A DNA stretch of 64,000 nucleotides, taken from Xanthomonas bonasiae. Its GTDB lineage: Bacteria; Pseudomonadota; Gammaproteobacteria; Xanthomonadales; Xanthomonadaceae. The stretch's first letter is position 1. Every line of letters starts with the position of its first letter. Under the pieces are notes generated by a model. That model saw only the letters and a program-made list of their open reading frames with translations. It did no database searches and was not told the DNA's origin. The stretch covers positions 124,001 through 188,000 of the forward strand of contig NZ_JAFIWB010000006.1 in NCBI RefSeq assembly GCF_017163705.1, given 5' to 3'. Positions 10,163 to 42,346 of the stretch are shown here, in pieces. A program made the translations under genes and the position numbers.

Positions 10163-10267
10163 TCCGCAGGGCCCGCAGCCGCGTCCACGCGGGCGAGGCT
10201 TAGCGGTTGCGCAACGGCGCGATGACGCGGCCATGGCAACGTCATCGGCGCCGGCTAGAATCCGCGC

Positions 10268-11080
10268 ATGAAATCCTCTCTCTTCGTTTCCGCCGCGCTC
10301 GCCGCGGCACTGGCCGCCGCGCCGTCCGCCGCCTTCGCCTGGGGCCCGCTGGGCCATCGCTTGGTCGCAGATCTCGCCGATGCCCAGCTCACCCCGCAGG
10401 CCCGCGCGCAGGTGCAGCAGTTGCTGCAGGGCGAACCCGAGCCGACCCTGGCCGGCGTCGCCAACTGGGCCGACCAATTGCGCGAAAGCGACCCGGACAT
10501 GGGCAAGCGCACCGGCCCCTGGCACTACGTCAACCTCGGCGAAGAGCAGTGCCACTACGAGGAAACCCGCGATTGTCCCGACGGCAACTGCGCGGTCGAG
10601 GCGCTGCGCCGCCAGGCCGCGATCCTCGCCGATCGCAGCCAGCCGCAGGCGGCACGGGCCCAGGCGCTGAAGTTCGTGGTGCATTTCGCCGGCGACATCC
10701 AGCAGCCGCTGCACGCCGGCTACGCCCACGACAAGGGCGCCAACACCTTCCAGATCCAGTTCGAGGGCAAGGGCAGCAACCTGCATTCGCTGTGGGACAG
10801 CGGCCTGCTGCGCAGCCGCGGCCTGGACGAGGCGCACTACCTGGCGCAGCTGCAGGCGCAACCGCTGCCGGCCCCCTCGCCTGCCGGCAGCGCGTTGCCG
10901 CCGCCGGCCGCGGCCTGGGCCGAAGCCTCGTGCCGGATCATGCTACGCCCGGGCTTCTACCCGCCCGGCGCCAAGCTGCCGGCCGACTACGTGGCGACCT
11001 GGCGCCCGGTCGCCGAAGCGCAACTGCGCCAGGCCGGCGCGGATCTGGCGGCGACGCTGAACGCTGCGCTGGCGAAGTAA
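10268..11080 (+). CDS. S1/P1 family nuclease
   Basis: 270 residues. The signal peptide ends AFA-WGPLGH, placing Trp25 at the mature N-terminus, where its amino group and carbonyl ligate zinc in this family. Further trinuclear-zinc ligands are visible: His30, Asp69 (NWADQLR), His86 (PWHYVNL), HFAGDIQQPLH and NLHSLWD. The enzyme is predicted to be a secreted or periplasmic zinc nuclease/3'-nucleotidase acting on single-stranded nucleic acid. Length matches bacterial members. It is convergent with trxC, with the long palindrome at 11099-11166 between them. Confidence 0.92.
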   Translation: MKSSLFVSAALAAALAAAPSAAFAWGPLGHRLVADLADAQLTPQARAQVQQLLQGEPEPTLAGVANWADQLRESDPDMGKRTGPWHYVNLGEEQCHYEETRDCPDGNCAVEALRRQAAILADRSQPQAARAQALKFVVHFAGDIQQPLHAGYAHDKGANTFQIQFEGKGSNLHSLWDSGLLRSRGLDEAHYLAQLQAQPLPAPSPAGSALPPPAAAWAEASCRIMLRPGFYPPGAKLPADYVATWRPVAEAQLRQAGADLAATLNAALAK

Positions 11081-11098
11081 CGCGCGGCCCCTGCTTTT

Positions 11099-11166
11099 TG
11101 TAGGAGCGGCTTCAGCCGCGACAGGCCTTCCCGATAGATCCTGTCGCGGCTGAAGCCGCTCCTACA
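11099..11166. repeat. Palindromic repeat element, copy 1
   Basis: Two perfectly complementary 27-base arms (11099-11125 and 11140-11166) around a 14-base loop. Each arm contains its own mini-hairpin GCGGCT-TC-AGCCGC. The element lies between the convergent S1/P1 nuclease and trxC genes, where it could end transcription from both sides. Related copies are at 42271 and, as a half, at 21200; a decayed one is near 62749. Confidence 0.95.
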
Positions 11167-11212
11167 GGGATACAGGAATACAGGAATGCTGCGGGATTGC
11201 GCGGGGCCGGAC

Positions 11213-11650
11213 CTAGCCGGCATGCCCTTGCGCCCAGCGCACGATCTCGGCAACACCGATCGCACCGCTGTGCCGCGCCAACTCGCGGCCATGCCGCAGC
11301 AAGGCCAGGGTCGGAATGCTGCGGATGCCGAAGCGCCCCGCCAGCGCCGGCTGCGCCTCGGTGTCCAGCTTGCCCAGGCGCATGCGCGGTTCCAGGTGTG
11401 CGGCGGCCGCCTCGAACTGCGGTGCCATGGTCCGGCACGGGCCGCACCACGGCGCCCAGAAGTCCACCAGCAGCGGAATGTCGCTGCGCTCGGCATGGGC
11501 GGCGAAGGTGTCCGCGGTCAGCGCGACCGGCGCGCCGACGAACAGCGCACGATGGCAACGCCCGCATTGCGGTGCCGCCGCCAGGCGTTCGCCCGGCACC
11601 CGGTTCAGCGCCTGGCAGTGCGGGCAGGCGATGTGCAGCGGATCGCTCAC
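11213..11650 (-). CDS. trxC: Thioredoxin 2 with N-terminal zinc ribbon
   Basis: 145 residues with a GTG start that overlaps the osmC stop (GTGA). The N-terminal CPHC (Cys9, Cys12) and CGRC (Cys29, Cys32) pairs form the zinc module that separates TrxC from TrxA. The thioredoxin domain follows, with WCGPC at residues 68-72 and a cis-proline in SIPTLALL. It reduces disulfides in the cytoplasm, often under oxidative stress. Being coupled to an OsmC-type peroxide reductase gives a coherent thiol-stress pair. The start is set by the zinc motif; no ATG lies at that point. Confidence 0.93.
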   Translation of the reverse strand: MSDPLHIACPHCQALNRVPGERLAAAPQCGRCHRALFVGAPVALTADTFAAHAERSDIPLLVDFWAPWCGPCRTMAPQFEAAAAHLEPRMRLGKLDTEAQPALAGRFGIRSIPTLALLRHGRELARHSGAIGVAEIVRWAQGHAG

Positions 11651-27365: not shown

Positions 27366-28544
27366 ATGCACCTCCGTTCATCCGCCCATCCGACGCCGGA
27401 TAGGGCCCGTCGCTTTGCGGCGCATGGCGCCCTGGCCAAACGTATCGAACGTATCAAACGTGCACTGCTTGGCCTGTTGGCGCTCGCGCCGCTCGCGTTG
27501 CACGCCGCACCGCGGCTCAACGAACTGCAATACATCGGCAGCCACAACAGCTACCACGCCGGCTTCGCGCCCAGCGAAGCCGAACTCTGGAAACGCACCG
27601 ATCCGGCCGTGTTCGCGACTCTGGATTACCGCCATCCGCCGCTGACGCAGCAATTCGACGACGGCGTCAGGCAGATCGAGCTGGATATCTATGCCGATGC
27701 CAAGGGTGGCCGCTATGCGCACCCGGCAATCGTCGGGCAGATCGCCAAGGCCGGCCTGCCGCCGGCGCCGGCCATCGCCGCGCCCGGGGTGATGGAAACG
27801 CCGGGATTCAAGGTCATGCACGTGCAGGACCTGGACCAGCGCAGCACCTGCCAGCCGCTGGTCGCCTGCCTGCAGCAAGTGCGCGCATGGTCCACACAGC
27901 ATCCGGGCCATCTGCCGGTGTTCGTGCTGCTGGAAACCGAGGAGTCGTCGTTGCAGTTGGCGTTCCCGACCGTGCAGCCCGAACCCTTCGATGCCGCCGC
28001 GATGGATGCGCTGGATGCGGAAATCCGCTCGGTCTTCCGGCCCGACGAGTATCTGAGTCCGGACCAGGTGCGCGGCACGGCGCCCACGCTCAACGCCGCG
28101 ATTCTTGCGCACGGCTGGCCGTCCCTGTCCGAAGCGCGCGGCAAGATCGTGTTCCTGCTCGACCAGCATTCGGTGGGCCGGCATTACCTGCCCGGCCATC
28201 CTTCGCTGCGCGGCCGCGTGTGCTTCACCAACGCCATTCCGGGCGAAGCCGATGCGGCCTTCACCGAGCGCAACGACGGCAGCGCGGAAGAGATCGCGCG
28301 CCTGGTGAAGGCCGGATATCTGGTGCGTACGCGCACCGATGCGGACCTGAAGGAGCCGGCGCGCGGCGACACCACACGCCGCGACAGCATGCTGGCCAGC
28401 GGCGCGCAACTGCTCAGTACCGACTATCCGGACCACGAACCGGCCGCCTCCGGCTATGTGCTGCGCTTCGCCGGCGACGCGGCGGCGCGCTGCAATCCGC
28501 AATTCCCGGCGGCGCACTGCGCCGGCTACGACCTGACGCACTAA
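27366..28544 (+). CDS. PI-PLC-C1-like secreted phospholipase C, copy 1
   Basis: 392 residues. A long N-region is followed by the signal core RALLGLLALAPLALHA and mature APRLNELQ. Catalytic residues of the calcium-dependent phosphatidylinositol phospholipase C-like family are visible in YIGSHNSYHAGF (first His), QIELDIYAD (metal Glu/Asp) and KVMHVQDLDQRSTC (second His), with FVLLETEESSLQL later. The real substrate in bacteria is not established; phosphoinositides or inositol-phosphate esters are plausible. The start is supported by conservation of GCCGCATGC around the ATG in both copies. It is followed by a TonB-dependent receptor and forms cassette 1 of a tandem duplication. Confidence 0.85.
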   Translation: MHLRSSAHPTPDRARRFAAHGALAKRIERIKRALLGLLALAPLALHAAPRLNELQYIGSHNSYHAGFAPSEAELWKRTDPAVFATLDYRHPPLTQQFDDGVRQIELDIYADAKGGRYAHPAIVGQIAKAGLPPAPAIAAPGVMETPGFKVMHVQDLDQRSTCQPLVACLQQVRAWSTQHPGHLPVFVLLETEESSLQLAFPTVQPEPFDAAAMDALDAEIRSVFRPDEYLSPDQVRGTAPTLNAAILAHGWPSLSEARGKIVFLLDQHSVGRHYLPGHPSLRGRVCFTNAIPGEADAAFTERNDGSAEEIARLVKAGYLVRTRTDADLKEPARGDTTRRDSMLASGAQLLSTDYPDHEPAASGYVLRFAGDAAARCNPQFPAAHCAGYDLTH

Positions 28545-28655
28545 CCGCGGCGGCCGTTGCGCAACGCACGCGTGATCGCGATGGCGTTCGCCGCTGGACG
28601 CGTGCGCGCGATCGGGTCCGACCGATCCACCCAGACTCCCACCCGAGCTACCGAC

Positions 28656-31373
28656 ATGCAGCGCACCCACACGATCAGCCGCTTGGCCTGCTCCATCGTA
28701 CTGGCGCTGTCCGCGCCGGCATTTGCGGACACCCCGGACCAGAATCCCAAGACCCTGGCGTCGGTCAATGTGGAAGCGGACCAGACCCCGGCGCCGGGGT
28801 CGATCAACGAACAGCGCCTGTCCAACAGCGTCAACAGCGTGATGGACAAGGAGCAGATCGACGCCATTCCGTCGGCCGGCATCGCCGACGTACTCGCGCA
28901 CATGCCGGGACTGTCGGCCTACAGCGACATGCACCTGGGCCAGGCCGCCACCGGCGAGAACGCCTACGTCAGCATCCGCGGCATGGACGCCAGCTACAAC
29001 GCCTACACCCTCAACGGCTTCGGCATGCCCGAAACCGATTCGTCGACGCGCGCGATCTCGTTGAACATGCTGGCACCGTTCGGCATCCAGTCGGTGCAGG
29101 TGTCCAAGGCGCCGACCCCCGACATGCCCGGCGATGCGATCGGCGGCGCGATCGACATGCGCACGCCCAGCGCATTCGACTTCGACCGCGATTTCTATGC
29201 CAAGACCACCGCGCAGGGCAAGCTGAGCGCACTGGCCTCGGACCTGGGCACGAAGGACAAGGGCGGCACGCTGCAGCAGGAACTGGCCTGGAAATTCGGC
29301 GAGCACCAGGCGTTCGGCCTCTACCTCTCCGGCTACTACGGCAAGTCGAACACCCTGGCGCAGGCCACCTCGCCCAACACCCCCTACACCCCGGTCGATC
29401 CGGCGCAGGCCGATGCCACCGACCTGCGCGCTGTCGGCCCGCTGGTCGACACGCAGTACAAGTACAGCCTCTATACCAACCAGATCGAACGCTACGGCGG
29501 CAACCTCGCGCTCGATTGGCAGGGCGAGCACAGCACGCTGTACGCCCGCGCGATCTATGGCGCCTACAACGTCACCGGACAACAGGATCAGGCCGGCGCC
29601 GCATCGGCGAGCAGCGGCGGCGCGCCGATCGCGGTACGCGGCGAATACTTCAACACGCGCGACATCCAGGAAAAGCTGGCGACGCTGCAACTGGGCGGCA
29701 AGACCACGCTCGACAAGCTGCAGTTCGACTACGGCACCTCGTTCGGCCGCGGCACCCGCAACCGTCCGGACTACGTCGAAGCGAGCATGTATGCGCTGAC
29801 CGCCGGCAACTACGCGTTCGACCTCAGCGACCCGACCTATCCGAACCTGGCGCCCAGCTCCGACGCGCTGAAACGCTACTTCTACGACCTGGACACGCCA
29901 CACTTCTGGAAAGTGCAGGGCCACGACGCTGGCAGCCACGACAACCGCGCCAACGCGCATGTCGACATCGCCTACCGCGTGGACGACAGCGTGCTGGAGA
30001 GCGTCAAGGTCGGGCTGTCCGCCGACCATTCCGAGCGCGGCGCCTACGATCACGCCTTCTTCCACAACGACAACAACTTCGTCTACGGCGGCCCCTACTT
30101 CGGCGGCCCCGACTATCCGTTCTATGCGGCCGGCGGCCCCACCCTGTCCGCGTTGCCCGGCAAGATCGTCAACGGCGGCTTCGACGGCAGGTTCGCCGGT
30201 CCGCTCAAGATCGTGGACCGCAACTGGGTGCTGGCGCAGGCCGTGCCCTACAAGTACGTCGACGATCCCAACGGCGCAGGCGTCTACACCGCCAACGACT
30301 ACAACGCCAACACCACCTCCAGTACCGAAGCGATCTATTCCGGCTATGCGATGGCCACGCTGCACCTTGGCGAGGTGACCGTGCTGCCTGGCGTGCGCTA
30401 CGAACTGACCCGCTACTCGGCCGATTCCTGGCAATCCAACGGCGACGATGCCACCGGCCGCTTCGTCGGCACCGGCCGCACCTATGGCGAAGTGCTGCCG
30501 GGGATCAGCCTCAACTATCGCCCGGACGATCTCACCGTCTATCGCGCCTCGCTGCGGCGCAGTTTCAGCCGTCCGGCCTTTGGCCTGATTTCCGGCGAGA
30601 CGGTGTACTCGATCGATGACACCAGCGGCAAGCTGCTGGGCATTTCCAAACCCAATCCGGATCTGAACCCGAGCAAGGCCGACAACGCCGATCTGTCCGC
30701 GGAGTTCTACGACGCGCACGGCGGCATGCTCAGCGCCTCGACCTACTACAAGCGCATCACCGGCTTCGTCTACACCTCGCAATCGTCCACCAGTAACGAC
30801 AACACGCTCGGCGGCCTGGTCCCTACCGGCACCACGCTGGAAAACGGCGTGCCGGTGACCATGCCGCAGAACGGCGGCACCGCCAAGCTCTACGGCGTGG
30901 AACTGGCGTTGAGCAAGCGCCTGCAGGATTTGCCCGGCATCTGGGGCAATTTCGGCGCCACCGCCAACCTGACCCTGCAGCACAGCTCGGCCGACAGCAA
31001 GCGCGCCGACCAGCCGGAGAACACCTGGTTGCCGCGCGCACCGGAGCGCATCTACAACCTGGGCCTGTTCTACGACGACGCGCAACTGCGCGCCGACCTG
31101 AGCTACAACTACACCGGCCTGCAGCTGCTCGGCCTGACCAGCGACCGGCTCAACTACTACCTACAGCCGGTGAAGTCGCTGGACTTGAACGCCACCTACC
31201 ACCTGCCGCACGGCATCGACGTCGGCGTGTCGGTCAAGAACCTGCTCGACGAAGCGACGTTCTACGAAACCCAGGGCAAGTCCAAGCGCTACCTGGCCTA
31301 CGATCCCGGCGCCGACGGCGCCTACGTCGAGACCGGGCGGGTGTACATGCTGACGCTGGGCTACACCTACTGA
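28656..31373 (+). CDS. TonB-dependent outer-membrane receptor, copy 1
   Basis: 905 residues from MQRTHTISRLACSIVLAL; signal peptide ends AFA-DTPDQ. A TonB-box-like TLASVNVEA precedes the plug domain (IPSAGIADVLAHMPGLS, YVSIRGMDASYNAYTLNGF in part). The 22-strand barrel follows, with SFSRPAFGLISGETVYS and the C-terminal LTLGYTY. It is energised by TonB-ExbBD. It is 111 bases after the phospholipase gene, so a joint job in capturing the lipase product or lipid-bound ligand is likely. It is nearly identical to copy 2 in the plug but differs in several surface-loop segments. A longer open frame from 28557 lacks a signal peptide. Confidence 0.92.
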   Translation: MQRTHTISRLACSIVLALSAPAFADTPDQNPKTLASVNVEADQTPAPGSINEQRLSNSVNSVMDKEQIDAIPSAGIADVLAHMPGLSAYSDMHLGQAATGENAYVSIRGMDASYNAYTLNGFGMPETDSSTRAISLNMLAPFGIQSVQVSKAPTPDMPGDAIGGAIDMRTPSAFDFDRDFYAKTTAQGKLSALASDLGTKDKGGTLQQELAWKFGEHQAFGLYLSGYYGKSNTLAQATSPNTPYTPVDPAQADATDLRAVGPLVDTQYKYSLYTNQIERYGGNLALDWQGEHSTLYARAIYGAYNVTGQQDQAGAASASSGGAPIAVRGEYFNTRDIQEKLATLQLGGKTTLDKLQFDYGTSFGRGTRNRPDYVEASMYALTAGNYAFDLSDPTYPNLAPSSDALKRYFYDLDTPHFWKVQGHDAGSHDNRANAHVDIAYRVDDSVLESVKVGLSADHSERGAYDHAFFHNDNNFVYGGPYFGGPDYPFYAAGGPTLSALPGKIVNGGFDGRFAGPLKIVDRNWVLAQAVPYKYVDDPNGAGVYTANDYNANTTSSTEAIYSGYAMATLHLGEVTVLPGVRYELTRYSADSWQSNGDDATGRFVGTGRTYGEVLPGISLNYRPDDLTVYRASLRRSFSRPAFGLISGETVYSIDDTSGKLLGISKPNPDLNPSKADNADLSAEFYDAHGGMLSASTYYKRITGFVYTSQSSTSNDNTLGGLVPTGTTLENGVPVTMPQNGGTAKLYGVELALSKRLQDLPGIWGNFGATANLTLQHSSADSKRADQPENTWLPRAPERIYNLGLFYDDAQLRADLSYNYTGLQLLGLTSDRLNYYLQPVKSLDLNATYHLPHGIDVGVSVKNLLDEATFYETQGKSKRYLAYDPGADGAYVETGRVYMLTLGYTY

Positions 31374-31549
31374 GCGAGGCGTGCAGGCGCTGCAACGCGC
31401 TCGCGTTGTCGCGCAGCACACAGCACGCGCGAGGCGGATCTTGCGGCGATCGCTTGCCACGGATGGCACGCGCGCCGATCGAGCGGCGCCATCGCAACTG
31501 CGGCAGCGGCCTTACGCATGGCGAACTGTCGCAATGCATGACGCCGTGT

Positions 31550-31566
31550 GGCAACAAGATGGAAAG
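31550..31566 (+). promoter_or_regulatory. Conserved upstream block of cassette 2
   Basis: GGCAACAAGATGGAAAG, 73 bases before the second phospholipase start, matching the block upstream of copy 1 at one-base difference. The remainder of the 249-base gap after the first receptor gene shows no gene. Confidence 0.5.
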
Positions 31567-31622
31567 ATGCGCGTCAAGCTGGCGGCTGATGATAGCGGGG
31601 TCTTGTTTTCCGGCTTTGCCGC

Positions 31623-32801
31623 ATGCGCCCCTTTTCATCCGTACTGCAGGCGCTGGAATCGGTCTGTTTCACCGCACCGCCAGCGGCGCGCTCACAACGT
31701 CGCAAACGTATCGAAAGCGTCCTGCTCGGTCTGTTGACGATCGTCCCGCTCGCGCTGCACGCCGCACCCAAGCTCAACGAACTGCAGTACATCGGCAGCC
31801 ACAACAGCTACCACGCCGGTTTCGCGCCCAGCGAAGCCACGTTCTGGAAACGGATGGACCCGGCATCGTTCGCGATGCTGGACTACCGCCATCCGCCAAT
31901 GGCGCAACAGCTCGACGATGGCGTCAGGCAGATCGAACTGGATCTCTATGCCGATGCCAAGGGTGGCCGCTATGCGCACCCGGCGATCGTGGAACAGATC
32001 GCCAAGGCTGGACTGCCGCCAGCCCCGGCCATCGCTCCCGCCGGCGTGATGGAGAAGCCCGGAATCAAGGTCATGCATGTGCAGGACCTGGACCAGCGCA
32101 GCACCTGCCAGCCGCTGGTCGCCTGCCTGCAGGACGTGCGCGCCTGGTCCAGGCGACACCCGGGGCATCTTCCGATCTTCATCCTGCTCGAAACCAAGCA
32201 ATCGCCGCTGCAGCTCGGCTTTCCCACCGTGCAGCCCGAACCGTTCGATGGTGCCGCGATGGATGCGCTGGATGCAGAGCTGCGCTCGGTGTTCGCGCCC
32301 GGCGAGTATCTGAGCCCGGACCAGGTGCGTGGCGATGCGCCCACGCTCAATGTCGCCATCCTCGCCCGTGGCTGGCCAGCCTTGGCCGAGACGCGCGGCA
32401 AGGTCGTGTTCCTGCTCGACCAACGTTCGGCCGGCAGCAGCTATCTGCCTGGCCACCCTTCGCTGCGCGGCCGGGTGTGCTTCACCAATGCCGTTGCGGG
32501 CCAAGCCGACGCTGCCTTCACCGAACGCAACGACGGCAGCGCGGAAGAGATCGCGCGCCTGGTGAAAGCCGGATATCTGGTGCGCACGCGCACCGATGCG
32601 GACCTGAAAGAACCGGCGCGCAACGACACCACGCGCCGCGACGGCATGCTCGCCAGCGGCGCACAGTTGCTCAGCACCGATTTCCCCGCTCACGAAGCGG
32701 CCGCTTCCGGCTACGTGGTGCGCTTCGATGGCGACGCGGCCGCCCGCTGCAATCCGCAATTCCCGAACGCACGCTGCGACGGCGTCGATCTGACGCATTG
32801 A
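31623..32801 (+). CDS. PI-PLC-C1-like secreted phospholipase C, copy 2
   Basis: 392 residues, the same length as copy 1. The N-terminal 45 residues differ (MRPFSSVLQALESVCF and RKRIESVLLGLLTIVPLALH), while the mature parts align without gaps: YIGSHNSYHAGFAPSE, IELDLYADAKGGRYAHPAIV and KVMHVQDLDQRSTCQPLVAC are shared, with catalytic His residues kept. About nine residues in ten match by eye in the core. Conservation of active-site residues argues that both copies are functional. It begins cassette 2 and is followed by the second receptor after 136 bases. Confidence 0.85.
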   Translation: MRPFSSVLQALESVCFTAPPAARSQRRKRIESVLLGLLTIVPLALHAAPKLNELQYIGSHNSYHAGFAPSEATFWKRMDPASFAMLDYRHPPMAQQLDDGVRQIELDLYADAKGGRYAHPAIVEQIAKAGLPPAPAIAPAGVMEKPGIKVMHVQDLDQRSTCQPLVACLQDVRAWSRRHPGHLPIFILLETKQSPLQLGFPTVQPEPFDGAAMDALDAELRSVFAPGEYLSPDQVRGDAPTLNVAILARGWPALAETRGKVVFLLDQRSAGSSYLPGHPSLRGRVCFTNAVAGQADAAFTERNDGSAEEIARLVKAGYLVRTRTDADLKEPARNDTTRRDGMLASGAQLLSTDFPAHEAAASGYVVRFDGDAAARCNPQFPNARCDGVDLTH

Positions 32802-32937
32802 ATCGACGCCGCTCGCCCCGTTTCGTACCGCACCACCTCCACACACCTGTCGCAATGGAACGCATGGGCGATGCAATCGCCTGCGCCCGCATCGCCGGGG
32901 CCAGGGTACCCAAGCTCACCAACCGCGAGTTCTCTAC

Positions 32938-35661
32938 ATGCAGTCCACCCGTTCCATCAGCCGCCTGACCTACGCCATCAGCATCGCCCTGACGTTCTGC
33001 GCACCCGCGTTCGCGGAGGACGCGAGCCCACGCACCCCCACCACGCTGGATTCGGTCAACGTGCAGGCCGACCAGGCGCCCGCGCCCGGTTCGATCAACG
33101 AACAGCGCCTGTCCAACAGCGTCAACAGCGTGATGGACAAGGAGCAGATCGACGCCATTCCCTCGGCCGGCATCGCCGACGTGCTCGCGCACATGCCGGG
33201 ATTGTCGGCCTACAGCGACATGCACCTGGGCCAGGCCACCACCGGCGAGAACGCCTACGTCAGCATCCGCGGCATGGACGCCAGCTACAACGCCTACACC
33301 CTCAACGGCTTCGGCATGCCCGAAACCGACTCCTCGACCCGCGCGATCTCGTTGAACATGCTGGCGCCGTTCGGCATCCAGTCGGTGCAGGTCTCCAAGG
33401 CGCCGACACCCGACATGCCCGGCGACGCGATCGGTGGCGCGATCGACATGCGCACGCCCAGCGCGTTCGACTTCAACGGCGATTTCTATGGCAAGACCAC
33501 CGCGCAGGGCCAGTTCAACGCGCTCGCCTCGGACCTCGGCGGCAAGGACAAGGGCGGCACGCTGCAGCAGGAACTGGCCTGGAAGTTCGGCGACAACCAG
33601 GCCTTCGGCCTCTACGCGTCCGCCTATTACGGCAAGAACAACAACATGGCGCAGGCGCCTGCGCCCAACAGCAAATACGTTCCGGCCGATCCGGCACAGG
33701 CCAATGCCACCGATCTGCGCGATGTGGGCCCCCTGGTCAGCACCCGCTACAAGTACAGCGTCTACACCAGCCAGATCGAACGCTACGGCGGCAACCTCGC
33801 GCTCGACTGGCAGGGCGAGCATAGCGCGCTATACGCCCGTGCCATCTACGGCAGCTACCGTGTCACCGGGCAGCAGGACCAGTCCAGCGCGCGCCTGGAA
33901 ACCTATCTGAACCAGCCCACGGCCGTGCGCGGCGGCTACTTCAACACGCACGACATCGACGAGAAGCTGGCGACGCTGCAAGTGGGCGGCAAGACCACGC
34001 TGGACCGCCTGCAGTTCGACTACGGCAGCTCGTTCGGCCGCGGCACCCGCAGCCGGCCGGACTACGTCTCGGCCAGCCTGTACGGTTTCACCCCCGGCAG
34101 CTTCGCCTTCGACCTCAGCGACCCGACCTATCCGAGCATCGGTCCCAGCTCCGACGCGCTGAAGAACTATTTCTACAACCTGGATTCTGCATTGCTATGG
34201 AAGGTGCAGGGCCATGACGCCGGCAGCCACGACAACCGCGTCAATGCGCACACCGACATCACCTACCACGTGGACGACAGCGTGCTGGACAGCGTCAAGG
34301 TCGGGCTGTCCGCCGACCACGCCGACCGCGGCGCCTACGACCATCCGTTCTTCCACAAGGATGGCAACTTCGTCTCCAACGGCCCTTACTTCGGCGGCCC
34401 CAACTACGCCTTCCCCACCGCCGGCGGCCCGCCGCTGAGCGCGATCCCGGGGCGGGTGACCTACGGCGCCTTCGATGGCCACTATGCCGGCCCGTTCAAG
34501 ATCCTGGACCGCAACTGGATGCTGGCGCAGGCCGTGCCCTACAAGTACATCGACGATCCCAAGGGCGCCGGCGTCTATACCGCCAACGACTACAACGCCA
34601 ACACCACCTCCAGCACCGAGGCGATCTATTCCGGCTACGCGATGGCCACGCTGCACGTCGGCGACGTGACCTTGCTGCCTGGCGTGCGCTACGAGCTGAC
34701 CCGCTACTCGGCCGATTCCTGGCAATCCAGCGGCGACGGCATCAATGGCCGGTTCGTCGGCAACGGCCGCACCTATGGCGAAGTGTTGCCGGGGATCAGC
34801 CTCAACTATCGCCCGGACGATCTCACCGTCTATCGCGCCTCGCTGCGGCGCAGCTTCAGCCGCCCGGCCTTCGGCCTGATTTCCGGCGAGACGGTGTACA
34901 CCATCGACCCCAACAACACGGTCATCGGCATTTCCAAGCCCAATCCCGACCTCAATCCGAGCAAGGCCGACAACGCCGACCTGTCCGCGGAGTTCTACGA
35001 CCATCATGGCGGCGTGCTCAGCGCGGCGACCTACTACAAGCGCATCACCGGCTTCGTCTACACCTCGCAGTCGGCCACCAGCAACGACAACACGCTCGGC
35101 GGCCTGGTTCCCACCGGCACCACGTTCGAGAACGGTGTGCCGGTGACCATGCCGCAGAACGGCGGCACCGCCAAGCTCTACGGCGTGGAACTGGCGGCCA
35201 GCAAACGCCTGCAGGACCTGCCCGGCATCTGGGGCAATTTCGGCGCTACCGCCAACCTCACGCTGCAGCACAGCGAAGCGGACAGCAAGCGCCCGGATCA
35301 ACCGGAAACGACCTGGTTGCCGCGCGCGCCGGAACGCATCTACAACCTGGACCTGTTCTACGACGACACGAAGCTGCGTGCGGACCTGAGCTACAACTAC
35401 ACCGGCCTGCAGCTGCTCGGCCTGACCAGCGACCGGCTCAACTACTACCTGCAGCCGGTGAAGTCGCTGGACTTGAATGCCACCTACCACCTGCCGCACG
35501 GCATCGACGTCGGCGTGTCGGCCAAGAACCTGCTCAATGCGGCCACCTTCTACGAGACCCAGGGCAAGTCCAAGCGCTACATGGCCTACGATCCCGGCGC
35601 CGACGGCGCCTATGTCGAGACGGGCCGGGTGTACATGCTGACGGTGGGCTACACCTACTGA
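32938..35661 (+). CDS. TonB-dependent outer-membrane receptor, copy 2
   Basis: 907 residues from MQSTRSISRLTYAISIAL; signal peptide ends AFA-EDASP. TonB-box-like TLDSVNVQA, then a plug identical to copy 1 apart from one residue over more than 100. Differences cluster in likely extracellular loops: SARLETYLNQPTAVRGG replaces AGAASASSGGAPIAVRG, KDGNFVSNGPYFGGPNYAF replaces NDNNFVYGGPYFGGPDYPF, and TIDPNNTVIG replaces SIDDTSGKLLG. The barrel end LTVGYTY is kept. It probably takes up a related but not identical ligand. Confidence 0.92.
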   Translation: MQSTRSISRLTYAISIALTFCAPAFAEDASPRTPTTLDSVNVQADQAPAPGSINEQRLSNSVNSVMDKEQIDAIPSAGIADVLAHMPGLSAYSDMHLGQATTGENAYVSIRGMDASYNAYTLNGFGMPETDSSTRAISLNMLAPFGIQSVQVSKAPTPDMPGDAIGGAIDMRTPSAFDFNGDFYGKTTAQGQFNALASDLGGKDKGGTLQQELAWKFGDNQAFGLYASAYYGKNNNMAQAPAPNSKYVPADPAQANATDLRDVGPLVSTRYKYSVYTSQIERYGGNLALDWQGEHSALYARAIYGSYRVTGQQDQSSARLETYLNQPTAVRGGYFNTHDIDEKLATLQVGGKTTLDRLQFDYGSSFGRGTRSRPDYVSASLYGFTPGSFAFDLSDPTYPSIGPSSDALKNYFYNLDSALLWKVQGHDAGSHDNRVNAHTDITYHVDDSVLDSVKVGLSADHADRGAYDHPFFHKDGNFVSNGPYFGGPNYAFPTAGGPPLSAIPGRVTYGAFDGHYAGPFKILDRNWMLAQAVPYKYIDDPKGAGVYTANDYNANTTSSTEAIYSGYAMATLHVGDVTLLPGVRYELTRYSADSWQSSGDGINGRFVGNGRTYGEVLPGISLNYRPDDLTVYRASLRRSFSRPAFGLISGETVYTIDPNNTVIGISKPNPDLNPSKADNADLSAEFYDHHGGVLSAATYYKRITGFVYTSQSATSNDNTLGGLVPTGTTFENGVPVTMPQNGGTAKLYGVELAASKRLQDLPGIWGNFGATANLTLQHSEADSKRPDQPETTWLPRAPERIYNLDLFYDDTKLRADLSYNYTGLQLLGLTSDRLNYYLQPVKSLDLNATYHLPHGIDVGVSAKNLLNAATFYETQGKSKRYMAYDPGADGAYVETGRVYMLTVGYTY

Positions 35662-35837
35662 GCGCGGCCTGCCTCCGGCCAAGCGCGCCGGAGGCGTCGC
35701 GGCTCGGTTCTTGGAAGCGAGACGGTTGCGCGGCCCGGCAGTGCCGGCCGCGCTGCGGTCAGCGGGCAGCCAGACATTTCACGCTGGCTAGTCGCGACGC
35801 TTAGGCATGGTGGCTGCAATTCATGCCGGAGTCGCCG

Positions 35838-36797
35838 ATGTCCCGCCTATCGCTTCCACTCGCCTGCCTCGCCGTGCTGTTCGCGAGCGCCGTCGGCACT
35901 GCATCGGCGCAGCCGCCCGCCAAGGCCGCGGCCTCCACCGCAGCCCCGGACAGCGGCGAACGTTCGCCGCTGCGCGCACAGGTGCTGCTGGACCGCGCGC
36001 ACTTCTCCCCGGGCGAGATCGACGGCCAGCCGGGCTCCAACCAGCGCCGCGCGGTCTCCGGCTTCCAGCAGGCGCGCGGACTGACCGCAAGCGGCGAACT
36101 CGACGACGCCACCTGGCAGGCGCTGGCGCAGGACAGCGCGCCCGCGCTGATCGCCTACACACTCACCGCCGAGGACGTGGCCGGTCCGTTCCCCAAGATC
36201 CCCGAGGACACCGCGGAGAAGGCCAAGCTGCCGGCGCTGGGCTACGAATCGGTGGAAGAGCGCCTGGGCGAACGCTTCCACGCCGCGCCTGCGCTGTTGC
36301 GCGCGCTCAACCCGTCGGTCGACTTCAGCCAGGCTGGCGCCAGCGTGCAGGTGCCGAACGTGCTCGGCACCGCGGCGCTGCCGAAGGCGGCCAAGCTGGT
36401 GGTCGACAAGTCCGATTCCACCGTGCGCCTGCTCGACGCCGGCGGCGCGATCCTGGCCCAGTTCCCCGCCTCCACCGGCAGCGAGCACGATCCGCTGCCG
36501 ATCGGCGACTGGAAGATCAAGGGCGTGGTGCGGCAGCCGACCTTCCACTACAACCCCAAGCTGTTCTGGGACGCCGACAAGTCGGACAAGAAGGCCACGT
36601 TGGCCGCAGGCCCGAACAATCCGGTCGGCGAGGTGTGGATCGACCTGTCCAAGGACCACTACGGCCTGCACGGCACGCCGGATCCGGCGCGGGTCGGCAA
36701 GGCGCAATCGCATGGCTGCGTGCGCCTGACCAACTGGGACGCGCTGACCGTGGCCGCCGCGGTGAACGCGTCGGTGCCGGTGACCATGCAGGAGTGA
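35838..36797 (+). CDS. L,D-transpeptidase with N-terminal peptidoglycan-binding domain
   Basis: 319 residues from [16 protein letters not shown]; signal peptide ends [11 protein letters not shown]_binding_1 module ([36 protein letters not shown]) comes first, a LysM-like middle ([19 protein letters not shown]) next, then the YkuD domain: [28 protein letters not shown] and the catalytic SHGCVRLTN. It forms 3-3 peptidoglycan cross-links or attaches proteins in the periplasm. GGAG six bases before this ATG favours it over the ATG at 35823. It is followed four bases later by an M23 peptidase gene, suggesting coordinated wall remodelling. Confidence 0.92.
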
Positions 36798-36801
36798 GCG
36801 G

Positions 36802-37512
36802 ATGAAGACCGTGCTCAGCCTGGCGGCGCTGGTAATGGCGGTAGCGCTCGGCTACTGGGTGCTGCGCGCCGGCGTACAGGTGCGCCCCAGCGCAGCCGCG
36901 GCCGGCGACGCAGCGGCCACGCTCGCAATGTCCCCTGCCACAGCGCCAGCAGCGGCACCGGCACAGCGCGAGGCGACCGCGCCGGCGCCTTTGCCAATGT
37001 CGATAGACACCCCGCCGGCGGCGGCGCCTGCCGCGGCCGCAGCGCCCCCCGCGGCCACGTCGGCGAACGCTTCCGACGACCTGCTGATCCCCGTACAAGG
37101 CGTGCGTCGCGACCAGCTGCAGGACACCTTCACCGACGCGCGCAGCCAGGGCCGGCACCACGACGCGATCGACATCCTGGCGCCGGCCGGCACGCCGGTG
37201 CTGGCGGTGGCCGACGGCAGCGTGGAAAAGCTGTTCGACAGCGAGCGCGGCGGCCTCACCGTGTACCAGTTCGAACCCAGCGGCCGCTACGCCTACTACT
37301 ACGCGCACCTGCAGCGCTACGCGGATGGACTGGCGGAAAAACAGACGCTCCGCCGCGGCCAGGTGCTCGGCTATGTCGGCAGCACCGGCAATGCCGATCC
37401 TGGCGCGCCGCACCTGCATTTCGAGATCCACCGGCTGGGCCCGGAAAAGCAGTGGTGGAAGGGCGAATCGCTCAATCCGTATCCGCTGCTGCGCGGCGAG
37501 CAGCGCCTGTAG
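36802..37512 (+). CDS. M23-family peptidoglycan endopeptidase (LytM-like)
   Basis: 236 residues. An N-terminal membrane anchor or signal (VLSLAALVMAVALGYWVLRA) is followed by an Ala/Pro-rich linker of about 70 residues, then the LytM domain. The zinc motif is visible in GRHHDAIDILAPAGTPVLA (His and Asp) and HLHFEIHRL (HxH), with YYYAHLQRYADG between. An intact site suggests an active endopeptidase rather than an EnvC-like activator. It starts four bases after the L,D-transpeptidase stop, so the pair is one operon that makes and cuts wall cross-links. Confidence 0.9.
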   Translation: MKTVLSLAALVMAVALGYWVLRAGVQVRPSAAAAGDAAATLAMSPATAPAAAPAQREATAPAPLPMSIDTPPAAAPAAAAAPPAATSANASDDLLIPVQGVRRDQLQDTFTDARSQGRHHDAIDILAPAGTPVLAVADGSVEKLFDSERGGLTVYQFEPSGRYAYYYAHLQRYADGLAEKQTLRRGQVLGYVGSTGNADPGAPHLHFEIHRLGPEKQWWKGESLNPYPLLRGEQRL

Positions 37513-37781: not shown

Positions 37782-38513
37782 ATGGCGAAAGCTCTTCCAC
37801 GGCCGCCTGTCCCGGGCCCGGCGTTCATTCGCCTCCTCGCACGTCTCACCGACGCCGACATCGCGCCGTCCAGCCCCGCGCTGGCCGACCGGCTCGGCCA
37901 ATGGATCGACTGGACGCGCGCCGTGGCCGTGTCCAGGGCGCTGGACGGGAGGCTGCCCGCGATCGACGCCGACGCGCCATTCGAGGGCGCCGACGCGCAC
38001 GAGTGCGCACGCGTGCGCCGCGCGCTGGAGGAGGCGATTTCCAGCGACACCGCCGCGGACGCCGGCAAGCAAGGCCCCCGGCCTGGCCATGCCGCCGACG
38101 CGAACGCGCCGCTCGACTACGCGCCGTTCCGCCAGCGTTACCTGTCGCTGCAGCGGACGATGCTGACCGCGACCGGCCGCCTGCGCGGCCAGCTGCGCGA
38201 CACGCTGGCGCGGACGTCGGCCGACATGGCGCGGCTGGCGGAGGTGGATGCGGTCATGGAGCTGACCCTGAGTCCGCGCGAACAGACCCTGCTGGCTGCC
38301 GTGCCGGCGCTGCTGCAACAGCATTTCGAACGCCTGCGCGAGACCGAGCCCACCGCGGCGGCCGACACGCACACGGCGGACACCGCTCAGGCACCGACCG
38401 CCAACGCCTGGCTGGACGTGTTCCGCCAGGACATGCGCAGCGTGCTGCGCGCCGAGCTGGATGTCCGCTTCCACCCCATCGACGCGCTGCTCGCAGCGCT
38501 GCGCCCCCGCTGA
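37782..38513 (+). CDS. DUF3348-family protein, first gene of stator-like operon
   Basis: 243 residues, predicted cytoplasmic, no signal or membrane helix. The N-terminus FIRLLARLTDADIAPSSPAL then LADRLGQWIDWTRAVAVSRAL is the DUF3348 signature, as I recall it. The middle is helical (YLSLQRTMLTATGRLRGQLRD) and the C-terminus ends RAELDVRFHPIDALLAALRPR. No catalytic motif is seen. It is ten bases before the MotA/TolQ-like gene, so it probably works with that complex, perhaps as a cytoplasmic adaptor. The 269 bases upstream hold the only obvious promoter region of the operon. Confidence 0.75.
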   Translation: MAKALPRPPVPGPAFIRLLARLTDADIAPSSPALADRLGQWIDWTRAVAVSRALDGRLPAIDADAPFEGADAHECARVRRALEEAISSDTAADAGKQGPRPGHAADANAPLDYAPFRQRYLSLQRTMLTATGRLRGQLRDTLARTSADMARLAEVDAVMELTLSPREQTLLAAVPALLQQHFERLRETEPTAAADTHTADTAQAPTANAWLDVFRQDMRSVLRAELDVRFHPIDALLAALRPR

Positions 38514-38523
38514 CCGAGACCTC

Positions 38524-40860
38524 ATGTTCAAGAACTTCTTCAATTCCGTCGTGTTCCTGGCCGGCCTCGCCGCCGTGTGCTGGATCGGCGTGGGCTATCT
38601 CGGCACCAATCCGCTGGGCGTCGGCTTCGCGCTGCTGATCGGCGCGTGCTACGTGGCCGGCGCGCTGGAGCTGTACCGCTACCGGCAGGCCACGGCCACG
38701 CTGGTCCACGCCGTGGCCGACGCGGACGCGGCGCAGTCCGACCTGGGCGGCTGGCTGCAGCGCCTGGATCCGAGCCTGCGCAATGCGGTGCGCCTGCGCA
38801 TCGAGGGCGAGCGCGTCGCCTTGCCGGCGCCGGGACTGACCCCGTACCTGGTCGGCCTGCTGGTCCTGCTGGGCATGCTCGGCACCTTCCTGGGCATGAT
38901 GGCGACCCTGCGCGGTACCGGCCTGGCGCTGGAAAGCGCGACCGACCTGCAGGCCATCCGCGACTCGCTGGCCGCACCGGTCAAGGGCCTGGGCTTCGCG
39001 TTCGGCACCTCCATCGCCGGCGTGGCCAGTTCGGCGATGCTCGGCCTGCTCGCCGCGCTGTGCCGGCGCGAGCGGCTGCAGGCGGTGCAAGGGCTCGACC
39101 TGGCCATCGCGACCACGCTGCACGTCCATTCGCAGGCGTTCCAGCGCAGTGAAGCGTTCAAGCTGCTGCAGCGGCAGACGGAACTGATGCCGGCCTTGAT
39201 CGACCGGCTGCAGGCGATGGCGACCGGTATCGAGCAACAGGGCGCCGCCAGCGGCGAACGCCTCGCAAGCAATCAGGACGCCTTCCACGCCAGGACCGAG
39301 GCCGCCTACACGCGCCTGGCCGGCGCGGTGGAGCAGTCGCTGCAGGCCGGCGTCGCGGAGAACGCGCGCGCGCTCGGCGCGGCGCTGCAGCCGGTGGTGC
39401 AGGCCACCCTGGACGGCCTGGCGCGCGAAACCGCGACGCTGCACGAGCACGTCGGCCAGGCCGTGCAACGCCAGCTGGACAGCCTGGCCAGCGGCTTCGA
39501 GAACGCCGCCGCGCGCGCCGCACAGGCGTGGGATGCCGCGCTGGCCGGCCAGCGCGACACCAACCAGGCGCTGGTCCAGGATCTGCGCAGCGCGCTGGAC
39601 GGCTTCGGCGACAGCTTCGCGATGCGCTCGAACGGCGTGCTGGATGCCGTGTCGGCGCGCCTGGACGCCACGGCGGACGGCGCCAAGCAGGCATGGAACG
39701 ATGCGCTGTCGCGCCAGCAAGAGATCAACGCGCAATTGGCAGCGCGCAACGCACAGGCGCTGGATGCGATCTCGGTACGCCTCGACGCCACCGCCGATGG
39801 CGCCAAGCAGGCCTGGAGCGATGCGCTGTCGCGCCAGGAAGCGATCAACGAACAGCTGGCGGCGCGCAACGCACAGGCGCTGGATGCGATCTCGGTACGC
39901 CTCGATGCCACCGCCGATGGCGCCAAGCAGGCCTGGAGCGATGCGCTGTCGCGCCAGGAAGACGTCAACGCCGCCCTGGCCGAGCGCAACGCAAAGGCGC
40001 TGGACGCGGCCGCAGCGACGCTGGAACAACGCGCGGCGGCGCTGGTCGAGGTCATGCAGCACTCCCACGCGCAATTGCAGGACGCGCTGCAAGCGCGCGA
40101 CCAGGCGCGCCTGGCCACGTGGACCGACACGTTCGCCGCGATGGTCGCCGCCTTGAACGCGGAGTGGGAGCGCAACGGCGAGCACATCGCGCAGCGCCAG
40201 CAGGACATCTGCGCCACCCTCGAACGCACCGCAGGCGCGATCGCGGCGCAGACCCAGGCGCATGCCAGCGAGACCATCGCCGAGATCTCGCGCCTGGTGC
40301 AGACCGCGTCGGAAGCGCCGAAGGCCGCCGCCGATGTCGTCGCCGAGCTGCGCCAGAAACTCTCCGAGAGCATGGTCCGCGACACCGCGATGCTGGAAGA
40401 GCGCAGCCGCCTGCTGGACACGCTGCACACCTTGCTCGACGCGGTGAATCACGCGTCCACCGAGCAACGCACCGCGGTGGACGCCCTGGTCACCACCTCG
40501 GCGGATCTGCTCGAACGGGTCGGCACCCGCTTCACCGACCACATCGAAGCCGAGACCGGCAAGCTCGAATCGGTCGCCGCGCAGGTCGCGGTCGGCGCCA
40601 CCGAAGTGGCGAGCCTGGGCGATGCGTTCGGCGGCGCGGTGGAGGCGTTCGGCCACTCGAACGCGGCGCTGCTGGAGCGCCTGCAGGGCATCGAACAGGC
40701 GCTGGACAAGTCGCTCGCGCGCAGCGACGAGCAACTGGCCTACTACGTGGCCCAGGCGCGCGAAGTCATCGACCTGAGCATGCTGTCGCAGAAGCAGATC
40801 ATCGAGGAGTTGCGCCAGCTGCCCGGCCAGCACGCCGACGGCGGAGCCGAAGCGGCATGA
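38524..40860 (+). CDS. MotA/TolQ/ZorA-like membrane protein with long coiled-coil tail (DUF802)
   Basis: 778 residues. Four membrane helices: about 8-26, 31-51, 106-127 (LVGLLVLLGMLGTFLGMMAT) and 156-180 (FGTSIAGVASSAMLGLLAAL). The GTFLGM and TSIAGVASSAMLG motifs match the pore helices of the MotA/TolQ/ExbB proton-channel fold, with the cytoplasmic loop between TM2 and TM3. From residue 181 to about 760 the protein is one very long Ala/Gln/Glu-rich helical tail, containing three 40-residue repeats (380-499). This is the design of ZorA in Zorya defence systems. Its stop overlaps the MotB-like start (ATGA). Function undescribed as far as I know. Confidence 0.8.
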   Translation: MFKNFFNSVVFLAGLAAVCWIGVGYLGTNPLGVGFALLIGACYVAGALELYRYRQATATLVHAVADADAAQSDLGGWLQRLDPSLRNAVRLRIEGERVALPAPGLTPYLVGLLVLLGMLGTFLGMMATLRGTGLALESATDLQAIRDSLAAPVKGLGFAFGTSIAGVASSAMLGLLAALCRRERLQAVQGLDLAIATTLHVHSQAFQRSEAFKLLQRQTELMPALIDRLQAMATGIEQQGAASGERLASNQDAFHARTEAAYTRLAGAVEQSLQAGVAENARALGAALQPVVQATLDGLARETATLHEHVGQAVQRQLDSLASGFENAAARAAQAWDAALAGQRDTNQALVQDLRSALDGFGDSFAMRSNGVLDAVSARLDATADGAKQAWNDALSRQQEINAQLAARNAQALDAISVRLDATADGAKQAWSDALSRQEAINEQLAARNAQALDAISVRLDATADGAKQAWSDALSRQEDVNAALAERNAKALDAAAATLEQRAAALVEVMQHSHAQLQDALQARDQARLATWTDTFAAMVAALNAEWERNGEHIAQRQQDICATLERTAGAIAAQTQAHASETIAEISRLVQTASEAPKAAADVVAELRQKLSESMVRDTAMLEERSRLLDTLHTLLDAVNHASTEQRTAVDALVTTSADLLERVGTRFTDHIEAETGKLESVAAQVAVGATEVASLGDAFGGAVEAFGHSNAALLERLQGIEQALDKSLARSDEQLAYYVAQAREVIDLSMLSQKQIIEELRQLPGQHADGGAEAA
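39661..40020 (+). repeat. Three 120-bp in-frame tandem repeats
   Basis: Units start at 39661, 39781 and 39901, each exactly 120 bases (40 residues, core DATADGAKQAW and DALSRQE). Units 1-2 and 2-3 differ at few positions, units 2 and 3 being almost identical. They fall inside the coiled-coil tail and keep the heptad register, so copy number would change tail length. A period of 120 bases was read directly from the sequence. Confidence 0.95.
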
Positions 40861-41507
40861 GCGACGAGCTCGAGATCGAAGCCGACGCCGGCGCGCCGAT
40901 CTGGGCCGTGTTCGGCGACCTGATGTCGGTGCTGCTGGGCGCGTTCGTGCTGATCCTGATCGGCGTGATCGGCGTGCAGCTGCAGCTGTCGCACAAATTG
41001 GACGAGGAAGTCCGGCAGCGGCAGGCCGAGGCGCGGCAACGCAAGACCCTGGAACAGGCGCTGGCCGCGCCGCTGGCTGCAGGCCGGGTGACCCTGGTCG
41101 ATGGCCGCATCGGCATTCGCGGCAGCGTGCTGTTCGCGCTCAATTCCGATCAGTTGCAGCCCGAAGGACGCGAAGTGCTGAAGAGCCTGGCCGCGCCGCT
41201 GGCCGGCTACCTCAAGGCGCGCGGCGAGATCCTGATGGTCAGCGGCTTCACCGACGACCGCCAGGTGCGCGACAGCAATCGCCAGTTCGCCGACAACTGG
41301 GAACTGTCGGCGCAGCGCGCGCTGACCGTGACCCGTGCGCTGATCGACGAAGGCGTACCGGCCGATGCGGTGTTCGCCGCCGCGTTCGGCGCGCAGCAAC
41401 CGGTCAGCCCGAACACCGACGAAGCCGGACGCGCCAGCAACCGGCGCGTGGAAATGGCGCCGCTGCCGAAGCTGTCCACGTCTGCCGCCAGACCGCATGC
41501 GCGATAA
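40857..41507 (+). CDS. MotB/ZorB-like OmpA-family protein
   Basis: 216 residues. A short cytoplasmic N-terminus is followed by one membrane helix, WAVFGDLMSVLLGAFVLIL, with Asp21 placed like the ion-binding aspartate of MotB/ZorB. After a coiled linker comes an OmpA peptidoglycan-binding domain: LFALNSDQLQPEGREVLKSL, GFTDDRQ, NWELSAQRALTVTRAL and ASNRRVEM. The pairing with a TolQ/MotA-like protein in the preceding gene, overlapping by four bases, strongly suggests an ion-driven stator anchored to the wall. It is smaller than flagellar MotB and has no signal peptide, as expected for the topology. Its stop lies within the next gene. Confidence 0.85.
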   Translation: MSDELEIEADAGAPIWAVFGDLMSVLLGAFVLILIGVIGVQLQLSHKLDEEVRQRQAEARQRKTLEQALAAPLAAGRVTLVDGRIGIRGSVLFALNSDQLQPEGREVLKSLAAPLAGYLKARGEILMVSGFTDDRQVRDSNRQFADNWELSAQRALTVTRALIDEGVPADAVFAAAFGAQQPVSPNTDEAGRASNRRVEMAPLPKLSTSAARPHAR

Positions 41508-42207
41508 CGCGACATCCGCGAGCGAACTGCTCGGCGCATGGCGGCAGCGGCAGGCCGAGCGCCTGGATCCGCTGCGCTTCCGCTTCATCGAAGCACTGGC
41601 GCGGCGTGTCGATACGCATCATGGCCAAGCGCGGCGCCTGCTGGAGCAGAAGCTGTCCGCGCTGCTCGACGCCTATGCCGCGGACCTGGCCAGGATGCCG
41701 GCCGCGACAACCGCCGACGCCGAAAGCGATACCGACGACGGCACGGCCATCGCCGATACCGATACCGCGCCTCCCGCGACCGCGACTGCGACCGCGCGCA
41801 GCCCGCTCGGCGAACTGCTGCAGCGGTTCGCCGGCGGCGCCGCGCATGACGCGCATGACGCGAACGACACGGCAAACGCCATGCCGCCGCAGCCTGCGCA
41901 GCAACTGCCCGCACTCGACGATGCGCGCAGACTGTGGACCGAGCTGCGCAGCCGCAGCCAGCTGCGGCAATCGCTGCAGCAGGCCCCTGCCGATGCCGGC
42001 CCGCTGAATTCCGGCGTGCTGGTGCATCGCGCGCTGGCGCTGATGCGCACCCTGTCGCCGGGCTATCTGCAGCATTTCCTCGCCTACGTCGACGCATTGT
42101 CGTGGCTGCAACAGATGCACGACGATGATGTGCTCGCGACGCAGCAGAAACCCGGCGCGGATGTCGGCAAGAAGCCGACGCGCGGCAAGCCGCGCAAGCG
42201 CGGCTGA
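41497..42207 (+). CDS. DUF2894-family protein, last gene of stator-like operon
   Basis: 236 residues. The N-terminal helix region SELLGAWRQRQAERLDPLRF and RFIEALARRVDTHHGQARRL matches the DUF2894 family, as I recall it. A low-complexity Asp/Thr/Ala stretch spans residues about 70-100, then a conserved C-terminal part (LNSGVLVHRALALMRTLSPG, YLQHFLAYVDALSWLQQM) and a basic tail (KKPTRGKPRKRG). No membrane helix or signal peptide, so it is cytoplasmic. It overlaps the MotB-like gene by 11 bases. Function unknown; the basic tail could contact nucleic acid or the membrane surface. Confidence 0.75.
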   Translation: MRDNATSASELLGAWRQRQAERLDPLRFRFIEALARRVDTHHGQARRLLEQKLSALLDAYAADLARMPAATTADAESDTDDGTAIADTDTAPPATATATARSPLGELLQRFAGGAAHDAHDANDTANAMPPQPAQQLPALDDARRLWTELRSRSQLRQSLQQAPADAGPLNSGVLVHRALALMRTLSPGYLQHFLAYVDALSWLQQMHDDDVLATQQKPGADVGKKPTRGKPRKRG

Positions 42208-42270: not shown

Positions 42271-42346
42271 CCCCTGTAGGAGCGGCTTCAGCCGCGACAG
42301 GCTGCATCCGTAAAGCCCGTCGCGGCTGAAGCCGCTCCTACAGGGG
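42271..42346. repeat. Palindromic repeat element, copy 2
   Basis: Perfect 28-base arms (42271-42298 and 42319-42346) around a 20-base loop. The arms are the same as in copy 1 except that the left end is extended by CCCC. It lies between the convergent DUF2894 and tkt genes. Confidence 0.95.

Follow-up and report, generated by a model that had tools for sequence, protein, structure and literature searches.

A Zorya type III locus in Xanthomonas bonasiae, with a putative ion-driven motor and a ZorA tail that seems to vary by near-whole helical turns

A 64,000-nucleotide stretch of the Xanthomonas bonasiae genome (assembly GCF_017163705.1, contig NZ_JAFIWB010000006.1, positions 124,001 to 188,000 of the forward strand), here called the window, carries a four-gene operon at 37782-42207. 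Judged by its profile matches, this operon is a copy of Zorya type III, and the identity is secure. The system is already known; the finding is a correct annotation and no discovery. Zorya III is quite probably a peptidoglycan-anchored, ion-driven ZorA5-ZorB2 motor with a cytoplasmic rod and two helical cytosolic partners, and the motor mechanism is likely carried over from types I and II, given the residues that are conserved. The four genes are as follows.

37782..38513, plus strand: DUF3348 gene (ZorG3 in PADLOC-DB; ZorF in the text of PMC8565338), 243 amino acids (aa)
38524..40860, plus strand: zorA3, encoding a MotA/TolQ/ExbB-like core and a 597-residue tail, 778 aa
40857..41507, plus strand: zorB3, encoding one membrane helix and an OmpA/MotB-type domain, 216 aa
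41497..42207, plus strand: DUF2894 gene (ZorF3 in PADLOC-DB; ZorG in the text of PMC8565338), with a basic C-terminus, 236 aa

All four products match the type III models of PADLOC: ZorA (PDLC00650, E=0, 1169 bits), ZorB (PDLC00651, 2.5e-115), the DUF3348 protein (PDLC00658, 4.2e-90) and the DUF2894 protein (PDLC00652, 4.6e-73). The Pfam matches agree (DUF3348, PF11828, 6.8e-87; DUF802 repeats, 8.1e-37; OmpA, PF00691, 7.3e-19; DUF2894, PF11445, 4.4e-62). Type III was defined by Payne et al. in 2021 as zorAB with two DUF genes replacing zorC, zorD and zorE (PMC8565338). In both Pfam and PADLOC, zorAB in the window is flanked by the DUF3348 and DUF2894 genes; all four components of type III are present as the same gene set and there is no type-defining difference, the ZorA tail here having 3.1 copies of a 40-residue unit. 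A preliminary description of this DNA, made from the sequence alone, had called the system undescribed and not a known Zorya type. The four type III matches contradict both statements, as does the naming and phage testing of type III in 2021 (PMC8565338), and an undescribed system is thereby ruled out. Its remark that the two DUF partners have no described function still stands. The type III system of Stenotrophomonas nitritireducens DSM 12575 lowers phage plating in Escherichia coli (PMC8565338), and type III is mentioned in a 2025 structural paper (PMC11890865). In Burkholderia cenocepacia K56-2, infection is accompanied by altered expression of one or two genes at the start of Zorya III (PMC12584637). 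The names of the outer genes clash between sources: in PADLOC-DB, ZorG is the DUF3348 protein and ZorF the DUF2894 protein, and the text of PMC8565338 has them reversed. That text also writes zorBC for the motor pair.

The genes are tightly packed. The four open reading frames (ORFs) lie on one strand at exactly the coordinates proposed in the preliminary description, which had them overlapping or nearly touching; the junctions, in gene order, are a 10-nucleotide gap, a 4-nucleotide overlap and an 11-nucleotide overlap. That description had also suggested a search for the four-gene order elsewhere. Of 120 loci, 106 had all four genes called (103 of 117 when the duplicates of three records fetched twice are left out), and all 106 have one order on one strand. 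Of the remaining 14 loci, five start at a contig edge, eight have a short DUF2894 frame and one (L132) is a loss. The eight (L068, L071, L072, L075, L079, L087, L088 and L091) come from Stenotrophomonas maltophilia and near species. In these the start of the DUF2894 frame was not called at the usual place; the conserved part of DUF2894 is still detected by BLAST.

The motor pair has the architecture that the preliminary description read from it, a ZorAB/MotAB-like stator. PADLOC models, matches to the solved type I complex (8VVN) and conserved ion-site residues all agree with that reading.

38524..39168, plus strand: ZorA motor core, residues 1-215, with polar T121, T162 and S163 (hydropathy, alignment)

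ZorA has hydropathy windows at residues 1-51 (read as two helices), 97-131 and 158-181, giving the four-helix core that had been described, and 597 residues follow position 181, in line with the tail of almost 600 residues that had been noted. ZorB has a single hydropathy segment at 11-48 and its OmpA domain, again as first described; neither outer protein has a hydropathy window. Pfam MotA_ExbB is below threshold for ZorA (E=0.88). Residues 109-183 of ZorA match the solved type I ZorA (8VVN chain C) at 7.7e-6, and Asp21 of ZorB (codon 40917-40919) lies in the membrane helix and aligns on D24 of the 8VVN ZorB. D24 of type I ZorB is crucial for defence (PMC11890865).

Conservation was assessed in ZorB from 81 sequences (the window and the best 80, from named loci, of 580 confirmed candidates). 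ZorA was aligned in 77, since four of the 81 were dropped: three are cut by contig edges and one (L100) has unread bases. The last, from Achromobacter pulmonis (L100:3854-8022), matches ZorA in three frames and is either a broken gene or a flawed record. D21, D133, R154, N195, R196 and R197 of ZorB are invariant (81/81), and position 132 is T in 78 and S in 3. T121, T162, S163 and S170 of ZorA are invariant in 77/77. Asp21 is also present throughout a smaller alignment of 17, including four distant relatives whose ZorB is 53-62% identical to that of the window. The preliminary description had said that absence of Asp21 from homologues would argue against an ion-driven motor; as it is kept in every aligned homologue, this test does not refute such a motor.

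Comparison with other motors places the pair close to types I and II. These are 5:2 ZorA:ZorB motors with solved structures; their defence needs the ZorB Asp, peptidoglycan binding and the ZorA tail (PMC11890865). The window operon resembles type I (ZorABCD) in the ZorA core and in the position of D21, and differs in its ZorA, which scores 16.7 bits against NCBIfam ZorA_1, far short of the 190-bit cut-off. It shares a related motor core with type II (ZorABE; PADLOC ZorA2, 1.7e-8). The window ZorA has 778 aa; the type II ZorA of S. kujiense is described up to residue 378 (PMC11890865). As first reported, zorC, zorD and zorE do not accompany the operon: neither the four genes nor the 20 window ORFs scanned, out of 49 chosen by a crude rule, gave a match to zorC, zorD or zorE. 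MotAB/PomAB, TolQR and ExbBD have in common with the window pair the four-helix plus one-helix core with a membrane Asp, and flagellar MotB also shares the OmpA-type domain of ZorB; unlike them, the window operon has a long tail and two DUF partners. By curated cut-offs the predicted pair falls outside the flagellar stator MotAB. ZorA has no NCBIfam MotA match up to E=1. For ZorB, among the 25 of 43 matches listed, those to MotB, MotD and MotS are all below cut-off (e.g. MotD, 86.2 of 283 bits), and the only cut-off reached is that of NF006547, a hypothetical-protein family (379 of 194 bits). There are six MotA/ExbB-family genes elsewhere in the genome.

The ZorA tail is divided into a variable middle and a conserved end.

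39639..40008, plus strand: tandem repeat of 120 bp (40 residues), 3.1 copies, within the variable mid-tail (Tandem Repeats Finder; 88% matches, 0% indels)
40264..40791, plus strand: conserved distal ZorA tail, residues 581-756 (alignment conservation)

Conservation along ZorA is two-humped. The core (101-180) scores 0.88-0.95 and most of 581-760 scores 0.78-0.90, with a dip to 0.66 at 701-720 (20-residue block means). Between two thirds and three quarters of the 77 rows have gaps opposite residues 381-460 of the window protein. Across aligned homologues, the 375-559 segment ranges from 105 to 629 residues (standard deviation (sd) 85.5); the segment from 560 on has 213 to 249 (sd 5.9). Full length has its mode at 698 aa (26 of 110 distinct sequences) and ranges from 629 to 1229. 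Component sizes have been described as well conserved within each Zorya family (PMC11890865); in contrast, the type III ZorA tail varies widely in length. Tandem units are common in the longer tails, and the units differ between lineages.

These length changes seem to keep helical phase. The hydrophobic period of the mid-tail peaks at 3.64 residues per turn. Strong units of 22, 29, 40, 51, 62, 69, 84, 87 and 131 residues are at most 0.13 off whole turns at 3.645. A phase test with twelve units gives R=0.847 at 3.645 (scan p=0.0004); with the ten strong units R is 0.835 (scan p=0.0098; p=0.0001 at fixed 3.64). One of these ten is out of phase. With nine units, after post hoc removal of the one from the flawed L100 record, R rises to 0.954. 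Phase-keeping units are what a continuous helical rod would require, which supports such a rod in type III. They fit the low-resolution view of a five-helix rod in types I and II (PMC11890865), and together with the conserved tail tip they are as expected of a continuous helical rod. The tail thus provides a natural series of rod lengths for asking whether it acts as a shaft, a spacer or a tether.

The two partners are less well conserved than the motor. Median pairwise distances are 0.473 for the DUF3348 protein, 0.573 for the DUF2894 protein and 0.206 for the motor core; those of the distal tail are 0.198 in its first half and 0.305 in its second. The AlphaFold2 model of the DUF3348 protein is an all-helical bundle with four long helices past residue 113 (predicted local distance difference test score (pLDDT) 82.6), and the structure comparison listed no specific fold relative for residues 60-243. 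The predicted DUF2894 model has helices joined by a loose linker (pLDDT 75.4, predicted template modelling score 0.41), and likewise no specific fold relative was found in the structure comparison. DUF2894 has a conserved GPLNS...SPGY region. Its last 22 residues in the window have a net charge of +7; of 108 distinct homologues, 102 have a charge of at least +3 there. Neither partner matches a nuclease or helicase family over threshold in Pfam, NCBIfam or PADLOC.

A mechanism can be proposed from these features. ZorB would sense envelope damage at phage entry, and ion flow would turn or strain the ZorA rod. The conserved far end of the rod might then relay the signal, helped by the DUF3348 and DUF2894 proteins; the basic tail of the latter perhaps touches DNA or membrane. 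Because no nuclease is recognised in the operon, the effector may be a disguised nuclease, a host protein or the ion leak itself.

Several observations weigh against a defence motor of this design. The published defence result comes from one cloned system expressed in E. coli BL21-AI (PMC8565338). Near-fixation of DUF3348 in three genera, detailed below, is unusual for a defence system. There is no PADLOC match in the 20 other window ORFs scanned, so no defence island is evident. In a mirror-tree comparison, partial correlations of the tail tip with the two partners range from -0.24 to 0.22 and give no support for simple docking of the DUF proteins at the tip. Residues 104-180 of DUF2894 weakly match exodeoxyribonuclease X, far below threshold (E=0.028, 13.5 of 202 bits); because of this match, a nuclease is still a candidate role for that protein.

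The last point leads to one alternative, in which a partner is an unrecognised nuclease or nuclease adaptor, making type III a counterpart of type II whose effector has diverged. The proposed action of types I and II is via recruited nucleases, ZorCD and ZorE (PMC11890865), and the basic C-terminus of most DUF2894 homologues would suit such a role, as would the weak exodeoxyribonuclease X match. The idea is improbable. Another is a gated ion leak: phage would trigger its opening and so depolarise the infected cell, and the rod and partners would serve only as the gate. It is an older, abortive-infection view of ZorAB, quoted in PMC8565338. The invariant ion-site residues are compatible with it, as are the lack of a nuclease family over threshold and of a specific fold relative for the partners. 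It is hard to see, however, why a mere gate should have a rod of 600 residues whose tip is conserved and whose length changes keep phase, and types I and II need further components beside ZorAB (PMC11890865). A leak of this kind is hardly to be expected.

The distribution of the system raises a different alternative: a resident, non-defence job in Xanthomonadaceae and Burkholderiales (in envelope tension, or in the chromosome or division), with phage restriction upon overexpression as a secondary effect. This is unlikely, although a fair number of observations favour it. DUF3348 is found in 20/20 species genomes of the window's genus, 35/35 of a second genus and 87/91 of a third, compared with a type I restriction domain in 47/91 of the third genus; there, the cut-off of the type I ZorA model is reached in 0/91 genomes. 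Across the family, 198 of 395 genomes have DUF3348, spread over 19 of 54 genera (among the family genomes listed, three have two matches, which in G394 lie within one gene), and a class-wide draw has it in 8 of 369. DUF3348 is thus near-fixed within some genera and absent from most others. The distribution of the three Zorya subtypes has been called typical of anti-phage systems (PMC11890865). The within-genus counts point the other way, and suggest that type III is no typical mobile defence system. With whole genera close to fixation, a resident function deserves testing, and these counts bear on how tallies of defence genes are read.

Inheritance and genomic context are in keeping with residence. 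In the window's genus, 18 of the 19 loci fetched have a transketolase gene downstream. The ZorAB tree (77 rows, drawn from the best 80 named loci) pairs the window with X. albilineans (Shimodaira-Hasegawa-like approximate likelihood ratio test support 99) and clusters by genus, with 21 label changes against a least possible 14 and a shuffled mean of 51.8 (0/200 shuffles as low). ZorB relatives occur in 27 of 72,556 plasmid records (E limit 1e-30), all at least 366 kb and up to 3.5 Mb, of which 20 are predicted to be non-mobilizable and 7 mobilizable; 0 of 50,697 phage records match (E limit 1e-10). The first half of the distal tail is conserved like the core (0.198 and 0.206) while the partners diverge, as if the tip meets something conserved. 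The system here looks more like a settled chromosomal part than a travelling defence gene.

The points against a resident job are of several kinds. Anti-phage activity has been published (PMC8565338). A ZorA1-like control protein also has no plasmid or phage matches, so these absences do not separate the Zorya types. The exception among the transketolase loci, Xanthomonas sp. AmX2 (L022/L128), lacks that neighbour and its ZorAB stands apart from that of the window in the tree; inheritance is therefore not strictly vertical, and transfer or relocation occurs. DUF3348 is absent from 3 of 86 good-quality genomes of the third genus, from the sampled genomes of 35 of the 54 family genera, and from 361 of the 369 class genomes, which indicates that it is not essential. 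The same is indicated by one of the 20 genomes of the window's genus (G019), which has DUF3348 and has lost the motor itself. At 9903-11501 of its locus (L132), a single frame fuses ZorA up to residue 427 to DUF2894 from residue 128. The junction is inside the ZorA repeat zone, zorB is gone, and DUF3348 and the transketolase gene are in place. Either the motor is dispensable in this strain or the assembly is at fault. This loss allele, the phase-keeping tail and the near-fixation are fresh points, not met in the papers cited here.

A more specific and rather doubtful picture would combine residence with the motor. Zorya III would be a resident motor, passed on mostly by vertical descent, of Xanthomonadaceae and Burkholderiales whose rod is a drive shaft. 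Its ends would be fixed by partners and its length would drift by whole turns only, as torque or bundle packing would forbid phase breaks. Defence would be one read-out of an envelope sensor, and the tip might meet a conserved host factor outside the operon.

Further members of the system were sought among the neighbouring genes. Genes for a YkuD L,D-transpeptidase and an M23 peptidase (35823-37512) lie directly upstream of the operon. They were rejected as members, since 8 of the 19 loci fetched for the genus showed the TonB receptor and neither of the two genes; in five of these genomes, about 0.2 kb separates the end of the TonB receptor frame from that of DUF3348. A fifth conserved component was also rejected: among the 25 flank families listed (from 4258 frames unfiltered for real genes), none kept its side and distance across many genera.

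The window has other features outside the operon. Between the DUF2894 gene and the transketolase gene is a palindrome resembling repetitive extragenic palindromic (REP) elements (42276-42341). Its 23-base arm has 607 matches in the genome at up to 2 mismatches and none in a reversed control; the stretch folds at -75.5 kcal/mol (z -12). Upstream, at 27366-35661, a pair made up of a PI-PLC-C1 gene and, after it, a TonB-dependent receptor gene is present twice in tandem. Over 371 residues, the two PI-PLC-like proteins share 83% identity.
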